Below, piece by piece: positions 50,418 to 58,507 of a stretch of 64,000 nucleotides of DNA. How positions within the stretch are numbered: position 1 is the first letter of the stretch; every line of letters begins with the position of its first letter. The notes below the pieces were generated by a model. The model did no database searches. It was not told the DNA's origin and saw nothing but the letters and a program-made list of their open reading frames with translations. A program made the position numbers and the translations under genes. Origin of the DNA: an uncultured Dehalococcoidia bacterium (GTDB lineage: Bacteria > Chloroflexota > Dehalococcoidia > Lucifugimonadales > UBA3495); assembly GCA_951813535.1 (NCBI GenBank), contig OX638345.1, positions 4,084,608-4,148,607 of the forward strand, read 5' to 3'.

Positions 50418-50816
50418 ATGGAATACAAGGGCCGAAAGTACCGAAAGCTGTACGCTCACTTGCTCAGCCTGTCGTCTCAGGAATGGGAGACTACATTCGC
50501 TGACGTTGAGGCCATCATCGGTGACAAGTTGCCTCCGGCGGCACGTACTCACCGGGCTTGGTGGGCGAATGACGTCAGCCACACCCATGGCAAGGCTTGG
50601 CTCGCCGCCGGCTGGAAGACGGCGGAGGTGGATATGGACGCCCAGACGCTCCTGTTCCGGCGCGAGGACTTTTATTCGCCGGACGGGCAATCGGTGTCCA
50701 CCAACGACGCCCTGGACGCGCTGGATCAATTGCAGACAGCGCTGGGGGTTCGCGGTGTAGACCTCGCTGGGTGGGCGCGAAACCTGCGAGCGGAACGGCG
50801 CGCCAATGGACAGTGA
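50418..50816 (+). CDS. Conserved small protein (DUF7662-like), putative antitoxin of a PIN pair
   Basis: 132 residues. The core is Y-R-K-L-Y-A-H-L-L-S, E-W-E-T-T-F-A-D-V-E-A-I-I-G-D-K-L-P near 22-39, then A-R-T-H-R-A-W-W-A-N-D near 42-52 and A-W-L-A-A-G-W near 60-66. I recall this pattern as DUF7662, but cannot confirm the number. The stop codon overlaps the GTG start of a PIN-domain gene (GTGA), implying translational coupling. The pairing suggests a toxin-antitoxin unit, with this protein as antitoxin or DNA-binding partner. Confidence 0.65.
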   Translation: MEYKGRKYRKLYAHLLSLSSQEWETTFADVEAIIGDKLPPAARTHRAWWANDVSHTHGKAWLAAGWKTAEVDMDAQTLLFRREDFYSPDGQSVSTNDALDALDQLQTALGVRGVDLAGWARNLRAERRANGQ

Positions 50817-51187
50817 CGATTCATCTGGACACCAGTTTTCTCATCCGGGCGTTGATACCGGATTCGCCGGAGAACCATAGATTGCGGGAATGGATCCGCG
50901 CCGGCGACACCATAGTTGTCAGCGCAGTGGCTTGGGCTGAATTCCTGTGCGGCCCGTTGACTGCTGACGAACTGCAACTAGCCGCCCGGGTAGTTGGACT
51001 GCCGCAAGATTTCACGTCCCGACATGCAATGATCTCCGCTCGTCTGTTCAACGCATCGGGCCGACGGCGAGGCACGATGGTGGACAGCATGATCGCGGCG
51101 GTCGCGCTGGGAGCGGGCTCCCAATTCGCGACCGCCAATGAGGACGACTTTACCAGATTTACGGAACAGGGCTTGCGATTGGTGTAG
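50813..51187 (+). CDS. PIN-domain ribonuclease (VapC-like toxin)
   Basis: 124 residues from a GTG start that overlaps the previous stop. The PIN acidic residues are D in I-H-L-D-T-S-F-L (Asp6), E in A-W-A-E-F-L, D in M-V-D-S-M-I-A-A and N/D in F-A-T-A-N-E-D-D-F. PIN toxins of VapC type cleave tRNA or rRNA, with metal ions bound by the acidic cluster. The partner is the upstream 132-residue protein, not a classical VapB. Good conservation of catalytic residues implies activity. Confidence 0.88.
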   Translation: MTIHLDTSFLIRALIPDSPENHRLREWIRAGDTIVVSAVAWAEFLCGPLTADELQLAARVVGLPQDFTSRHAMISARLFNASGRRRGTMVDSMIAAVALGAGSQFATANEDDFTRFTEQGLRLV

Positions 51188-51190
51188 ACC

Positions 51191-51727
51191 TCAGCCGCTC
51201 GTCAGGATCGCTGCCACCTCGGTGGCCAGGCCCTCGGCCCGTTCCCGCAGGGCGGGGCGGTCCAGGTTCTCGATGGGGTGCTGGGTGAAGATCGTCGGAT
51301 AGTCTTCCGCGCCCCACATCTTGGCCATGGCGTTGGCCGTGGGAATGAACCGGTCGGTGCAAATGGTCGCGGAGGGGAGGCCGGCCTTTTCAACGTGAAT
51401 TCCGTCGTGCACACTGCACGCGCTGCAACTCCCTCAATCGCCGATGGCCACCACCACCGCATCGACGCTGGCCACCAATTCCTCCAATTCCGCAGGATCG
51501 GCCGGCCGCGATGCGCTCGGCTTGCGCAGCCAGCGCACCTCTCGGATCTCATAGCGATTGCGCAGCACCTCGGCCAACTCCTCGAGCAGTACGTCCGCGT
51601 TGCGCTTGCTGTCGTCGATCAGACCGACCCGGGTGCCCGCCAAGGTGGGGAGGCGCGGCGCGCCGTCGAACGGCGCAATGACCGGCTCGGTGACCGGGTT
51701 GACCAGTTGGTAGGTTTGGGTAGCCAT
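51191..51727 (-). CDS. UGSC-family selenoprotein (in-frame UGA read as selenocysteine)
   Basis: 178 residues if UGA at 51434-51436 is decoded as selenocysteine (residue 98). The motif is then G-D-U-G-S-C-S-A-C-S, U98-G-S-C101-S-A-C104, which is the UGSC signature and also resembles the U-G-T-C-T-R-C of glycine reductase selenoprotein B. The frame continues for 80 codons with V-E-K-A-G-L-P-S-A-T-I-C-T-D-R-F and matching codon use. The N-terminus has G-L-I-D-D-S-K-R-N-A-D-V-L-L-E-E-L (35-51). The ATG has AGGAGG upstream. It lies 31 bases after a conserved partner gene. A reductase-type thiol/selenol chemistry is likely; the substrate is unknown. Without Sec insertion the product stops at 97 residues. 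Confidence 0.88.
51406..51420 (-). promoter_or_regulatory. Candidate bacterial SECIS stem-loop downstream of the UGA codon
   Basis: CGTGCA-GTG-TGCACG, a perfect 6-base-pair hairpin beginning 13 bases after the UGA. Its loop begins with G about 20 bases from the UGA, as expected for bacterial SECIS elements. It is shorter than the E. coli fdhF element, and no SelB-binding test is possible from sequence. Confidence 0.5.
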
Positions 51728-51758
51728 GTTAGCCCTCCTGGGACGGTTCCTGAAGCCG

Positions 51759-52823
51759 CTAAGGTATTTGTACTTTCTTGGTGACTGCGGTTGAGCCGAC
51801 TTTCGGCCCCCAACTCGGTATCACCGACGAAGAGTTGGACTCTTCTCCGCCGGCGAATACTACCAGAATATCGTCCGGTTCGGGAATAAGGGACACCATT
51901 GTGGCCTCGTCGCCCGGTTCCACGTCGCCCCGCAGCACCAGCCCACGCTTCAGGTCGGCTACCGAGCGCTGGATGTTGGCGTGCAGGTACTCTCGTACTT
52001 GTCGCTTCGTCCAGTCTCGCCACAGGTTGCTGTTGCCTGCGATGGTGACCGCCACCTGCCCCTGCCGGATGCCCACCGATACGTCGCCCACTGATCCCGA
52101 GGTGGACATCGACGTTCCCAAAGAGGATGCCACGTCCGCGATGGCGTACAGGATGGGCTCGGGCCGTCCGATGGACCGCACTTGTCGGGGCGCCTCGCTG
52201 GCAAACACCGTGACCGTGCTGTCGTCGGCGTGAAAGCCGCGCTCTACGTGCAGGGGCGTCCAGTGGGTCTCGCTCTCCGCCTCGGCGATGCAGTAGGTGT
52301 ACTTGCCCGGGTGTCCGATAACGCTCCGGTCAAACAACCCGGGGATGGCGGCGCAGGCATTCATCAGGATGAGCCGGATGGAGCGCCCGATGGTGCCGTT
52401 GGCCCGGTTGCCCGGTCCGAACAGGTTGTTGCGGCTGTTCAGCCCGATCTGCTCTCGGATGGGCCCGTTGACGATGCACAGCACTGCCGCGCCGCCCATG
52501 CTGGAGGAAGGCCCGACGAGGTTGAACACCGGATCCAGCATTGCCTCGGTGGCCGCCAGCACCACCGGGAAGTATTCGGGTACGCAGCCGGCCATCACTG
52601 CGTTGGCCGCCGCTTTCTCCACCGTGATCACTCGCCGCCGCTCCGGCAATTCCCCGATAACGTCTTCGGGCCCGCGCCCGGAGTAGCCGATGAACTCTGC
52701 CACGCGGGCCGTCGTGGGCGGCACCACGGGCAAGCCGTCGCTCCAACCCAGTTCATAGCCTTTCTCTATAGCGGAGAGTGCGTCATCCCAGGTGGTGGTG
52801 GTTATGTCGGTGAACGTGGTCAA
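51759..52823 (-). CDS. Conserved protein of unknown function, partner of the UGSC selenoprotein
   Basis: 354 residues. The TTG start at 52823 has AGAGG about eight bases upstream. Distinct segments are E-L-G-W-S-D-G-L-P-V-V-P-P-T near 19-32, A-A-N-A-V-M-A-G-C-V-P-E-Y near 66-78 and N-G-T-I-G-R-S-I-R-L near 134-143, so it is a conserved compact protein with a possible Cys in M-A-G-C. I do not recognise its family. Its gene ends 31 bases before the UGSC gene start and both are on the minus strand. The stable neighbourhood suggests they form one enzyme system. Confidence 0.7.
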   Translation of the reverse strand: MTTFTDITTTTWDDALSAIEKGYELGWSDGLPVVPPTTARVAEFIGYSGRGPEDVIGELPERRRVITVEKAAANAVMAGCVPEYFPVVLAATEAMLDPVFNLVGPSSSMGGAAVLCIVNGPIREQIGLNSRNNLFGPGNRANGTIGRSIRLILMNACAAIPGLFDRSVIGHPGKYTYCIAEAESETHWTPLHVERGFHADDSTVTVFASEAPRQVRSIGRPEPILYAIADVASSLGTSMSTSGSVGDVSVGIRQGQVAVTIAGNSNLWRDWTKRQVREYLHANIQRSVADLKRGLVLRGDVEPGDEATMVSLIPEPDDILVVFAGGEESNSSSVIPSWGPKVGSTAVTKKVQIP

Positions 52824-52911: not shown

Positions 52912-53859
52912 CTATGCCTTGGCGTACTTGGAGAAGCTGCGCAACTCGCGCGGCGGGTCCATGTGGCTGCCGCGTATGGTGAAGGACACCTCGGAAACGT
53001 ACACCGCGCCGGTGCTGTCCACAGCGATCCCGTGCGGCGCGATGAACTGCCCGGCGCCCTCACCCTCTTCCGGAGCGCCGAATACGCAGACGCGGTTGCC
53101 TTCCCGGTCGTAGATGGTGACGCGGTGACCCAGGCCCGGCGCATCGTCCACGCCGCCCATGCCGTTCAGCTCACCAACATAGATGTGGCCGCCCCAGTAG
53201 ACCATGGCGTCCGGCCGGTGGATGTTGCTCCACATCTCCGTGAAGTTGCCGTCGGTGTCGAACAACTGGATGCGGTGGCATTCCCGGTCCACCACGTACA
53301 CCCGCTCATCCTCGTCGAAGGCGATGTTGTGCGGGCGGATGAACTGGCCGGCGTCGATGCCCGGCTCGCCCCACGAGAACTTGTACCCGCCCTCGGCGGT
53401 GTAGACGTGGATGCGGGAGTTTCCGTACCCGTCGGAGACATAGATGTCGCCGTTGCTGGGGCGAATGGCCGCGGAGGTGGGACGGTTGAAGGGCTGCCCG
53501 CTCCAGCGCGGCGCCGGGTGGTTCTTCTCGCCGATCTCCATCAGCTTTTCGCCGGTGACGCTGAACTTCTGGATGGTGTGGATGCCGTCGTCGGCGGCCA
53601 GCAGGGTGTCGTCGGCGGCGCTGTAATACAGGCCGTGGGTCCGGTTGTCGCTGAAGTGGCCCTGTCCGAAGGAACGCTCAAAGTTGCCGTCCTTGTCGAA
53701 GACCATGATGGGATGCTCGCCACGGGTCAGGATGAACACGCGGTCATCGCCGTCCACGGCCACGCCGGGGCACTCCAGCAGGCGCATGCCATCCGGCAGC
53801 TTCAGCCAGTCCTCGACGAAGGTGTACTGGAAATCTCCTTGCCCAAAAGTTCCAGGCAT
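52912..53859 (-). CDS. NHL-repeat six-bladed beta-propeller protein (peptidyl-hydroxyglycine lyase-like)
   Basis: 315 residues. NHL units recur: D-G-D-D-R-V-F-I-L-T-R-G-E-H, N-G-D-I-Y-V-S-D-G-Y-G-N-S-R-I, D-E-D-E-R-V-Y-V-V-D-R-E-C-H-R-I and G-I-A-V-D-S-T-G-A-V-Y-V-S-E. It resembles the propeller at 15.8 kb in its D-G-Y-G-N-S and V-V-D-R-E segments, and is likely a paralogue. No signal peptide is visible. It lies upstream on the same strand as the UGSC partner gene, 88 bases away, so a shared transcript is possible. The activity may be lyase-like or a sensory propeller. Confidence 0.85.
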   Translation of the reverse strand: MPGTFGQGDFQYTFVEDWLKLPDGMRLLECPGVAVDGDDRVFILTRGEHPIMVFDKDGNFERSFGQGHFSDNRTHGLYYSAADDTLLAADDGIHTIQKFSVTGEKLMEIGEKNHPAPRWSGQPFNRPTSAAIRPSNGDIYVSDGYGNSRIHVYTAEGGYKFSWGEPGIDAGQFIRPHNIAFDEDERVYVVDRECHRIQLFDTDGNFTEMWSNIHRPDAMVYWGGHIYVGELNGMGGVDDAPGLGHRVTIYDREGNRVCVFGAPEEGEGAGQFIAPHGIAVDSTGAVYVSEVSFTIRGSHMDPPRELRSFSKYAKA

Positions 53860-53924: not shown

Positions 53925-54701
53925 CTACTGGGCAATACACCCGCCGTCGATGACCAGCTCAGCGCCCGTCACGAAGGACGCTTCATCGGATGCCAGGTAC
54001 AGCACGCCGTAGGCAACCTCGATGGGATGCGCGCGCCGGCCCAGGGGAACCTGCGCCAGCCGCTGCGCCGCGACCTCCGGATCGGCGTAGGTCGACGCGC
54101 TCATGGGCGTCATGATCGGCCCCGGGTGCACGGAGTTCGCGCGGATGCCCTCGCGGGCATGCTGCACCGCCGTGGCCTTGGTGAACAGGCGCACCGCTCC
54201 CTTGGATGCGTTGTACGGATGCGACCGCGACCACGCTCCGGTCATCCCCGCGATGGACGAGATATTGATGATCGACCCACCGCCGGCGCGGCGCATGGCG
54301 GGGATGGCGGCCCTGGTGCCCAGAAAGACTCCCTTGGAGTTGATGTCCATCACCCGGTCCCACTGCTCGACGCTGGTGTCTTCCAGCGAGATATTCCGCG
54401 CGCCGCCCTCCACGGAGATGCTGATGCCGGCGTTGTTCACCAGCGCGTCCAGCTTCCCGTAACGTTCTTCCGCCAACGCGACAATGGCCTGCCAATCATC
54501 CTCGCTGGTCACGTCCAAATGCGCGTAGGCCACGTCCAGGCCTTCAGCACTGCAGTCCGCCTCCACCTGCTGCCCGAGGTCGTCCAGGATGTCGCCGAAA
54601 ACGACGTTCGCGCCTTCCCTGGCAAACAACCGGACTTCCTCTGCGCCCATGCCGCGGGCGCCCCCGCTGATGATCGCAACCTTCCCGTCCATTCGGCCCA
54701 T
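53925..54701 (-). CDS. Short-chain dehydrogenase (3-alpha-hydroxysteroid dehydrogenase-like)
   Basis: 258 residues. M-G-R-M-D-G-K-V-A-I-I-S-G-G-A-R-G-M-G (1-19) opens it; N-N-A-G lies near 88 and Y-N-A-S-K near 156; the ending is E-L-V-I-D-G-G-C-I-A-Q. It is the third close SDR paralogue in the window. It lies upstream of the NHL, partner and UGSC genes on the minus strand with a 65-base gap, and downstream of HepT by 27 bases. Likely role in alcohol oxidation. GGGAGAAC precedes the ATG on the minus strand. Confidence 0.9.
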   Translation of the reverse strand: MGRMDGKVAIISGGARGMGAEEVRLFAREGANVVFGDILDDLGQQVEADCSAEGLDVAYAHLDVTSEDDWQAIVALAEERYGKLDALVNNAGISISVEGGARNISLEDTSVEQWDRVMDINSKGVFLGTRAAIPAMRRAGGGSIINISSIAGMTGAWSRSHPYNASKGAVRLFTKATAVQHAREGIRANSVHPGPIMTPMSASTYADPEVAAQRLAQVPLGRRAHPIEVAYGVLYLASDEASFVTGAELVIDGGCIAQ

Positions 54702-54728: not shown

Positions 54729-55082
54729 TTACTTCGCCGGAAGATTTTCGTCGATGATGGCTTGCAGTTGCTGCACGAGCGGTGGGAGATGCACCTGAAT
54801 AACCAACCATAGTTCGTCCAGGTCAACCGTGTCGTAGTCGTGAATCAGCACGTTGCGAAGGTCGGTCGTGTCCTGCCACGGGACATGTGGATAGTGGGCG
54901 CGAAACTCCTGCGGGGTCCGCCGCGCGGCCTCGCCGATTACTTCCATCCATCTGATAAGCGCCGCTTCCAGCATCTCATCAGCATCAAGGTCAGCCCGGA
55001 GGCGACCCCTCATCGTGGTCAAAACGCGCTGCGCATTGTCACGCATCTGCTGCACGGCCACCATTGGGTCACGGCGCGACAT
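54729..55082 (-). CDS. HepT-like toxin (HEPN, DUF86)
   Basis: 117 residues, all helical. The catalytic R-x4-H-x-Y motif is R-N-V-L-I-H-D-Y (Arg76, His81, Tyr83), the site of MntA-mediated AMPylation of HepT toxins. The ATG at 55082 lies within the end of the MntA gene (14-base overlap). HepT proteins act as RNases or tRNA-directed toxins neutralised by nucleotidyltransferase partners. Confidence 0.88.
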   Translation of the reverse strand: MSRRDPMVAVQQMRDNAQRVLTTMRGRLRADLDADEMLEAALIRWMEVIGEAARRTPQEFRAHYPHVPWQDTTDLRNVLIHDYDTVDLDELWLVIQVHLPPLVQQLQAIIDENLPAK

Positions 55083-55368
55083 AGACTTCCTCCGCCTCAT
55101 CCAGCACTTCCTGGCGGAAGTACGGGCTGAGGGATGCGGCGGTATGCATGTCCACTTCCCGGCCCAACATTGCCGTCAACTCCCGCCGCATCTGGAAGAA
55201 GACGAAGCCCGCCGCGTAGCCGGGCTCAAATTCCACCAGCACGTCCACATCGCTCCGCGGCGTGAAGTCGTCGCGTATCACGGAGCCGAACAGCGCCAGC
55301 CTGCGGACGCGGTGGCGCCGGCAGAACTCGGCGATCCGCTCGCGGGGTATGTCGATGCGGGCTGGCAC
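55069..55368 (-). CDS. MntA-like minimal nucleotidyltransferase antitoxin
   Basis: 99 residues. The nucleotidyltransferase signature G-S-x10-D-x-D is F-G-S-V-I-R-D-D-F-T-P-R-S-D-V-D-V-L-V (27-45, Gly28, Ser29, Asp40, Asp42), with a third acidic residue in E-V-D near 71-73. It directly precedes and overlaps HepT. Known MntA proteins add AMP to the HepT tyrosine and so switch the toxin off. It is the first gene in the minus-strand run towards the SDR and UGSC genes. Confidence 0.9.
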   Translation of the reverse strand: MPARIDIPRERIAEFCRRHRVRRLALFGSVIRDDFTPRSDVDVLVEFEPGYAAGFVFFQMRRELTAMLGREVDMHTAASLSPYFRQEVLDEAEEVYVAP

Positions 55369-56854: not shown

Positions 56855-58450
56855 CTAGGAGATCGCGGAAGAGCCCTCCCCCTTCAGGTAATCGGCGGTG
56901 CGCAGCGCCAGCGCCTGTATCGTCGTCGTCGGGTTGATGCAGGCTCCGGTGGTGAAGATGCTTCCGTCGATGATGAACAGGTTGGGCACGTCGTGGGCGC
57001 GACCCCAACGGTCCACCACCGAGCGATCGGGGTCGGATCCCATACGCGCCGTGCCCAGCAGGTGCCAGCCGGCGTTGCGCCGCAGCCTGGAGGAGACGAC
57101 CTTCTTCGCGCCGGCGGCCTCCAGCGCTTCGCTGGCGCGGGCGATGCCGTGGTCTAGCATGGCCCAGGTGTTGTCGCTGACCGTGTAGTCGATCTTGGGC
57201 GCAGGTATGCCGTGGCTGTCGGTCAGCGTCGGGTCCAGCGTGACCGTGTTGTGCTCTTCGGGCAGGTCCTCGGTCATGATGACGATGCCCATCTGGTGTC
57301 GGAACCGCTCCGCGAAATCACGGTGGTGTCCCTCGCCCCATTCGACCTGCTGGCCAACCAGGCCGCCCAGCGCGACTTGCAGCGGAGCGCCGCCCACGTT
57401 GGAAATCTGCATGTCGTAGCCGCGCACAAACCCGCGCCGCACATCGGTCTCGTAGAATTCCTGGCTGAGCATGGACGAACCGCGCGGCCCGTCGTCCGGA
57501 CCCAGGTCCTCGTCGAACAGGCCCATAACGTAGCCGCAGGGGTGATGCATCAGGTTGCGTCCCACCTGCCCGCTGCTGTTGGCCAGCCCGTGGGGGAACA
57601 AAGCGCTCTTGGAGTTGAGCAACAACCGCGACGTGCCGATGCCGTTGCAGGCCAGCACCACGACCTTCGCATACTGCGCCTGCAGGTTGCCGTTGTGGTC
57701 GTAGTAGGCGGCTCCGGTGGCCCGTCCGGCCTCGTCCACCAGGATCTCCCGCACCCGCGCATGGGTGATCAGGCGTGCGCCCTGCTTGAGCGCGCTGGGC
57801 CAGAAGACGATGTCGCTGCTGGACGGTGAGCGCAGGTATTCGCCCACGTCCGCCGGCCGGCCGTCGTAAGCGGCGGAGGCAACGGCATTGTCCGACGACC
57901 ACCAGTGCCAACCCAGTTGGTTGAACGCCCGGGCCAGTTTCTCGCCGCCCGGGCCGATGGGCAGCGGCGGGGTGGGCCGGGCCGGCTTGGGCGGGTAGGC
58001 GGTGTCACCCTGTAGTCCGCTGACGCCGTGGGCGCGGTCATTCTGGTCGTAGTACGGCTCCAGCTCGAAGTAGTCCATGGGCCAGTCGTCGGCCACGCCA
58101 TCCAGCGACTTCAGCCGGAAGTCCGAGGGGTGGAACCGGGGGAAGTGGGAGCCCCAGTGGATGGTGCTGCCGCCCACCGCGTTGTACATATACGGCGCGA
58201 TGGGGGTGTCATCCTCGTTGACCGGATAGTCCTCCGCCAACCCGCGGAAGTTGGGGTTGGGATGGAAATCGGTCTGCCAGTGCAGCTGCGCCTGCGGTTC
58301 GCTGACCGGAAAGGCGTTCGGCGGCACCCAGCCACCCTGCTCCAGGCACACCACCTTGACGCCGGCCTGGGTCAGGCTCCAGGTGAAAGCTCCGCCGGAA
58401 GCGCCGGCCCCGATGACGAGAACGTCGGCAATGTCGTGTTTGCTGGCCAT
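56855..58450 (-). CDS. GMC-family FAD-dependent oxidoreductase
   Basis: 531 residues from the ATG at 58450, which has CAGGAG upstream. The FAD motif is V-L-V-I-G-A-G-A-S-G-G-A-F-T-W-S-L (10-26). The active-site pair occurs in N-A-G-W-H-L-L-G-T-A-R-M-G, and the C-terminus has I-N-P-T-T-T-I-Q-A-L-A-L-R-T-A-D. It resembles glucose-methanol-choline enzymes of the gluconate 2-dehydrogenase/sugar dehydrogenase subgroup; an electron-transfer partner is not adjacent. It ends 12 bases before the frameshifted GNAT gene start on the same strand. Confidence 0.92.
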   Translation of the reverse strand: MASKHDIADVLVIGAGASGGAFTWSLTQAGVKVVCLEQGGWVPPNAFPVSEPQAQLHWQTDFHPNPNFRGLAEDYPVNEDDTPIAPYMYNAVGGSTIHWGSHFPRFHPSDFRLKSLDGVADDWPMDYFELEPYYDQNDRAHGVSGLQGDTAYPPKPARPTPPLPIGPGGEKLARAFNQLGWHWWSSDNAVASAAYDGRPADVGEYLRSPSSSDIVFWPSALKQGARLITHARVREILVDEAGRATGAAYYDHNGNLQAQYAKVVVLACNGIGTSRLLLNSKSALFPHGLANSSGQVGRNLMHHPCGYVMGLFDEDLGPDDGPRGSSMLSQEFYETDVRRGFVRGYDMQISNVGGAPLQVALGGLVGQQVEWGEGHHRDFAERFRHQMGIVIMTEDLPEEHNTVTLDPTLTDSHGIPAPKIDYTVSDNTWAMLDHGIARASEALEAAGAKKVVSSRLRRNAGWHLLGTARMGSDPDRSVVDRWGRAHDVPNLFIIDGSIFTTGACINPTTTIQALALRTADYLKGEGSSAIS

Positions 58451-58507
58451 GGGTTGTCGCTCCTGTGTATGGAGGTTGCGGCGCATTATAACGCGTGGGA
58501 GGAGCGG

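Follow-up and report, generated by a model that had tools for sequence, protein, structure and literature searches.

A UGSC-family selenoprotein gene and its partner gene in a Dehalococcoidia genome, and the relationship of UGSC to the selenocysteine subunits GrdB and PrdB

Among the described systems closest to the locus reported here are the selenocysteine (Sec)-containing amino-acid reductases. GrdB, a protein of about 435 aa, belongs with GrdF and GrdH to the subunits of glycine, sarcosine and betaine reductase (PF07355, TIGR01917/01918) and bears its Sec in the C-terminal part. D-proline reductase has its Sec on PrdB (TIGR04483), which works beside the pyruvoyl-forming PrdA. We know of no experiment on any protein of a further group, the UGSC family (PF24696; NF041046, "UGSC family (seleno)protein"), whose members have a UGSC motif, a UGA-encoded Sec and a bacterial SECIS element. 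The family was first reported in 2008 as a "UGSC-containing protein" of the GOS ocean metagenomes (PMC2398784), and a 2026 review still listed its function as unknown (PMC13188914). Zhang and Gladyshev proposed in 2008 that UGSC has a thioredoxin (Trx)-like fold (PMC2398784), and the 2026 review continued to place it among the Trx-fold proteins (PMC13188914).

Here we describe a UGSC gene in a window of 64 kb (the whole stretch of DNA analyzed, from the 4.38 Mb, single-contig genome of an uncultured Dehalococcoidia bacterium). The gene itself belongs to the known family; what is new is its link to a partner gene, a corrected fold and a relationship to GrdB and PrdB. In the literature that we searched, we found no mention of an operonic partner of UGSC, of its relationship to GrdB or of a flavodoxin-like fold.

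The UGSC gene and the decoding of its in-frame TGA

The UGSC gene is on the minus strand at 51191..51727, with an ATG start at 51727, a ribosome binding site (AGGAGGG) at 51733..51739 and a TGA stop at 51193..51191, and it encodes 178 aa. A plus-strand reading of the same region (open frame 51278-51784) was rejected, as it runs opposite to the profile match. An earlier, sequence-only reading had proposed that the frame crosses a TGA at 51434..51436 as D-U-G-S-C-S-A-C and then stays open with family-like sequence. Translation bore this out: the TGA is codon 98 (Sec98), the product around it reads GDUGSCSACSVHDG, and 80 sense codons follow before the stop. That reading had missed that the gene is on the minus strand and has a partner gene next to it, and had also overlooked the seven paralogues and the SECIS element.

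The product matched PF24696 (E=1.2e-55, 188.8 bits against a cut-off of 25) and NF041046 (E=3.1e-45, 153.8 bits against a cut-off of 125), in both cases far beyond chance and through the TGA codon. In an alignment of 87 UGSC sequences, the U, G and first C of the [UC]-G-x-C motif were invariant, this C being the candidate resolving Cys101 (51425..51427, minus strand) of U-G-S-C in the window copy. The gene resembled the family over its full length, as well as in its motif, Sec codon and SECIS, and showed no difference from it. Judged from these matches, it is an ordinary member of the catalogued UGSC selenoprotein family, as had been claimed.

The host genome encodes the Sec machinery whose presence had been proposed as a check, with profile scores of 445 bits for SelA, 355 for SelB and 370 for SelD, and a tRNA-Sec (66 bits) with anticodon UCA. 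The SelD gene (1105770-1106690, locus L045) has an in-frame TGA of its own, and SelD is likely a selenoprotein itself. Eight UGSC genes were identified in this genome, the window copy and seven others, each with exactly one in-frame TGA. In other genomes, 81 of the 82 readable UGSC genes located beside homologues of the partner had TGA at the Sec column; the sole TGC was in a Geodermatophilaceae locus (L091). The UGSC family was found in 42 of 400 genomes of the phylum, nearly all matches having one TGA. SelB was present in 38 of these 42 carriers (Fisher p=0.048), and is a weak discriminator because 311 of the 400 genomes have it. Relative to the three closest orthologues, dN/dS 3' of the TGA was 0.045-0.08, as it was upstream.

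Bacterial SECIS elements have been described as stem-loops directly 3' of the UGA with a small apical loop containing G (PMC1088965). The UGSC gene has such a hairpin, CGUGCA-GUG-UGCACG (6-bp stem, loop GUG), at 51406..51420 on the minus strand; its stem starts 16 nt past the first base of the UGA. In 61 non-redundant relatives a mean of 5.89 of the 6 pairs were formed, compared with 3.98 ± 0.12 (maximum 4.36) in 500 draws in which codons were redrawn synonymously. Compensatory changes on the two sides of the stem were seen at several positions (CGGGCA/TGCTCG, CGTGGA/TCCACG, CGCGCA/TGCGCG and CGGCCA/TGGCCG), and the first loop base was G in 60/61 and the second U in 61/61. The folding z-score against the synonymous null reached its minimum right after the TGA (mean -0.89); the rest of the gene gave values near zero. 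An Rfam scan of the 64-kb window gave zero matches. The U-G-x-C-x-x-C spacing to which the sequence-only reading had drawn attention is present in the window copy, but its last Cys occurs in only about half of the UGSC members. The codon for this third Cys sits in the SECIS stem, where C, G or W covaries with H or L further on, and the residue hence offers little support for a catalytic UxxCxxC.

If the TGA were instead a plain stop or a sequencing error, the product would be truncated at 97 aa. The same gene does end with TGA as a stop; however, the internal TGA is common to all eight paralogues and to 81/82 relatives, purifying selection persists past it, the SECIS covaries and the genome encodes Sec machinery, so that truncation can hardly be correct. 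A pseudogene was ruled out by the TGAs of paralogues and relatives and by the dN/dS values, and a stop followed by decayed sequence was not seen in the relatives. An alternative genetic code, in which TGA would specify another residue, was rejected because TGA also terminates the gene and Sec machinery is present. Together, these sequence data make it virtually certain that the window gene encodes a selenoprotein.

A few divergent UGSC-like members lack U, having GACWGT (L205), GDTRSG (L203:6379-8043) or ADMGV (L206) at the motif site, and the role of those copies must differ. Some of them are fused to the partner and are possibly non-redox derivatives.

Fold and relationship to the Sec-bearing part of GrdB

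An AlphaFold2 model of UGSC built with the 87 sequences (pLDDT 92, pTM 0.85) had five beta-alpha units forming a five-stranded, doubly wound alpha/beta sheet; Sec98 lies where the third helix begins, after strand beta-3. Its best structural matches were flavodoxin-like folds. The top match, 8s7v_H of the methyl-coenzyme M reductase activation complex, had a Z of 11.1 that was only 1-2 above unrelated entries. In contrast, a thioredoxin fold is built on a central mixed sheet of four strands, and its redox motif lies at the first helix. On the strength of the model, the UGSC domain is flavodoxin-like alpha/beta and not a thioredoxin fold. A PDB sequence search with UGSC and the partner returned nothing usable, and one with the GrdB alignment found no credible solved relative.

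The resemblance to GrdB, which the sequence-only reading had drawn from motif spacing alone, proved to be real homology. An hhalign comparison of UGSC with a profile of GrdB-family proteins collected in this analysis gave a probability of 92.8 and E=4e-7, with 30% identity over 81 columns and Sec aligned on Sec. The shared segment (strand - U-G-x-C-x-x - helix - E-x-x-G-[IL]-P) is the Sec-bearing C-terminal part of GrdB. UGSC members also matched the reductase models, weakly but repeatedly: TIGR01917 was matched by 27 of the 87 (best 5.8e-7), and there were matches to the GrdF, GrdH and PrdB models, with three members showing weak similarity to PrdB (TIGR04483). The full GrdB model (~431 aa, TIGR01917/01918) was not matched, the scores being 22.3 against 602.2 and 18.6 against 65.45 bits and covering positions 331-400 only. 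By these comparisons UGSC and the Sec-bearing part of GrdB/PrdB are homologous, but UGSC is not a GrdB, because the full model is unmatched and its partner differs.

Apart from UGSC, the host genome encodes a GrdB-like selenoprotein (PF07355; 4347088 onward, locus L166) whose Sec site is a TGA codon (LLTPTUPLC), and similar stand-alone selenoproteins of the GrdB C-terminal type were seen in other genomes of the phylum. Searches of the host genome for GrdE and GrdA (PF09338, PF04723), run without a positive control, gave no match.

The partner protein and the gene neighborhood

Immediately upstream of the UGSC gene, 31 nt from its start, is the end of the partner gene (51759..52823, minus strand; 354 aa). 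Its TTG start was judged by conservation, and the GAGGCA upstream is kept in close orthologues. A scan of 93 members of the partner family (~350 aa) against Pfam and NCBIfam yielded no match above noise. The host genome has eight partner copies, every one of which adjoins a UGSC gene or is fused to UGSC. Across many phyla, UGSC was found in the fetched flank of 75 of 80 partner loci; among the five without it, the partner was at the contig start in one and at the contig end in two. The 400 phylum genomes gave 42 with UGSC, 42 with the partner and 41 with both (41 of the 43 with either; hypergeometric p of about 1e-53). Distances between UGSC sequences and between their partners were correlated above all 500 shuffles, with r=0.72 for the eight pairs of the host genome and r=0.87 for 85 pairs, the latter partly mirroring species relatedness. 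In addition, about 30 natural UGSC-partner fusions were read. Together, these findings make it very probable that UGSC and the partner are an obligate functional pair. UGSC is one component of a two-protein system that is widespread in bacteria, and we expect the two proteins to form a physical complex.

Two of the fusions (L182:2204-4063 and L204:991-2823) have a lipoprotein-like N-terminus (LSGCGG and LSSCKE, respectively), which suggests export of the Sec protein. The 2008 report noted a fusion of UGSC to a domain termed "Unknown_1" (PMC2398784), and this domain may be the same partner.

The conserved polar residues of the partner are D, N, R, N, E and W, and no Cys is invariant. The Cys that is conserved best is replaced by Ala in a minority of members, many fusions among them, and a Cys-derived pyruvoyl group of the proline-reductase type is thus unsupported. 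A fold search with the partner within a fusion model gave no convincing match, almost all matches falling on the UGSC half, and a profile comparison of the partner with GrdB revealed no similarity. The partner's best PDB matches, short ones to designed TIM barrels (E about 0.02), were not credible.

Next upstream of the partner is an NHL-repeat beta-propeller gene (52912..53859, minus strand; PF01436), which is likely co-operonic with the pair and recurs near it in several relatives (cluster 1, 11 loci, mostly on the same strand). Upstream there are also an SDR-family dehydrogenase (53925..54701, minus strand; PF13561, 2.2e-64), SDRs being the commonest neighbors of UGSC-partner loci (21 loci), and, further away, a GMC-type oxidoreductase (56855..58486, minus strand) kept in six close loci. 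Other neighbors included luciferase-like monooxygenases, CoA-transferases, TctC receptors, acyl-CoA dehydrogenases and amidohydrolases, and in three loci NADH-dehydrogenase-type NuoE/NuoF genes were directly downstream of the pair. These neighbors suggest carbon degradation with varied substrates, although the survey is only suggestive because its ORFs were called mechanically and there was no background control. No single substrate is indicated, since the neighboring genes vary a lot.

The window also contains, adjoining the SDR gene, a HepT-like RNase and an MntA-like nucleotidyltransferase, a type VII toxin-antitoxin pair (54729-55368, minus strand). On the plus strand (50418-51187), a DUF7662 protein gene is followed by one for a PIN-domain, VapC-like toxin, whose end lies a few bases away from the UGSC stop. 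Elsewhere in the host genome, an AhpD/CMD-like ORF (L021:6416-6892; PF02627, 5e-9) with an in-frame TGA (C-R-Y-U) follows the UGSC paralogue at 2885879 at a distance of about 0.5 kb; it probably encodes a second selenoprotein of that operon. Such an ORF was not found beside the other UGSC loci.

Proposed function and comparison with known reductases

We consider it fairly likely that the pair is a two-subunit reductive selenoenzyme, with UGSC as the redox or catalytic subunit, acting through a Sec-Cys couple, and the partner as the substrate-binding one. That its chemistry is of the GrdB/PrdB type is an analogy to which we give an even chance. By analogy with the glycine and proline reductases (PMC13188914), the partner would hold a small organic substrate on which Sec98 would act as nucleophile or reductant, and Cys101 would release Sec98 through a selenenylsulfide. 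The outcome would be reductive bond cleavage or reduction, as in those enzymes, and the U-Cys pair might be re-reduced by a cellular dithiol or an NADH-linked donor. The paralogues, in some of which UGSC and the partner are one chain, could serve different substrates within carbon-degradation operons.

Two other functions were weighed. The UxxC of UGSC is the usual redox motif, and the Trx-like fold proposed in 2008 (PMC2398784) and still listed in 2026 (PMC13188914) would suit a general thiol/selenol redox protein, such as an electron carrier or a peroxide or disulfide reductase, with the partner as one client among several. We regard this as distinctly improbable, as the high-confidence model is flavodoxin-like and not thioredoxin, the homology points to GrdB/PrdB, and a general carrier does not go well with 1:1 pairing to one unrelated family of partners. 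Somewhat less improbable, but still unlikely in our view, is that Sec serves as a covalent nucleophile with no net redox change, in a Sec-dependent transferase, hydrolase or lyase whose substrates might be, for instance, acyl or carboxylated compounds of neighboring CoA-dependent pathways. The CoA-transferases, acyl-CoA dehydrogenases and amidohydrolases near the pair are consistent with such an enzyme, as are the conserved D, N, R, N, E and W of a partner without an invariant Cys. However, the Cys of U-x-x-C is invariant in 87/87 aligned members, which points to a redox couple, and the GrdB/PrdB relatives are reductases (PMC13188914).

Returning to the reductive two-subunit enzyme, we speculate, at odds that we judge to be balanced, that UGSC and its partner represent a widespread, uncharacterized class of selenoenzymes. 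In this class a GrdB/PrdB-type Sec domain would have been recruited to a different substrate-binding partner and multiplied into substrate-specific copies (eight here) that degrade organics outside amino-acid fermentation. If this speculation is correct, reductive Sec chemistry like that of the amino-acid reductases reaches far past Stickland fermentation, in multi-copy form, and into Chloroflexota, Rokubacteria, Proteobacteria and others. The partner link, the fold and the tie to GrdB/PrdB make the function of UGSC directly testable.

Compared with GrdB, UGSC is the Sec domain alone, its family does not conserve the last Cys found in the GrdB-type UxxCxxC, and its partner bears no likeness to the GrdE-type partners (Pfam scans of 93 members). 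PrdB is paired with the pyruvoyl-forming PrdA, whereas there is no evidence that the UGSC partner is PrdA-like, because it matches no known family. In overall arrangement, UGSC is nevertheless like PrdB of D-proline reductase: a small, separate Sec subunit with a UxxC motif and a larger partner.
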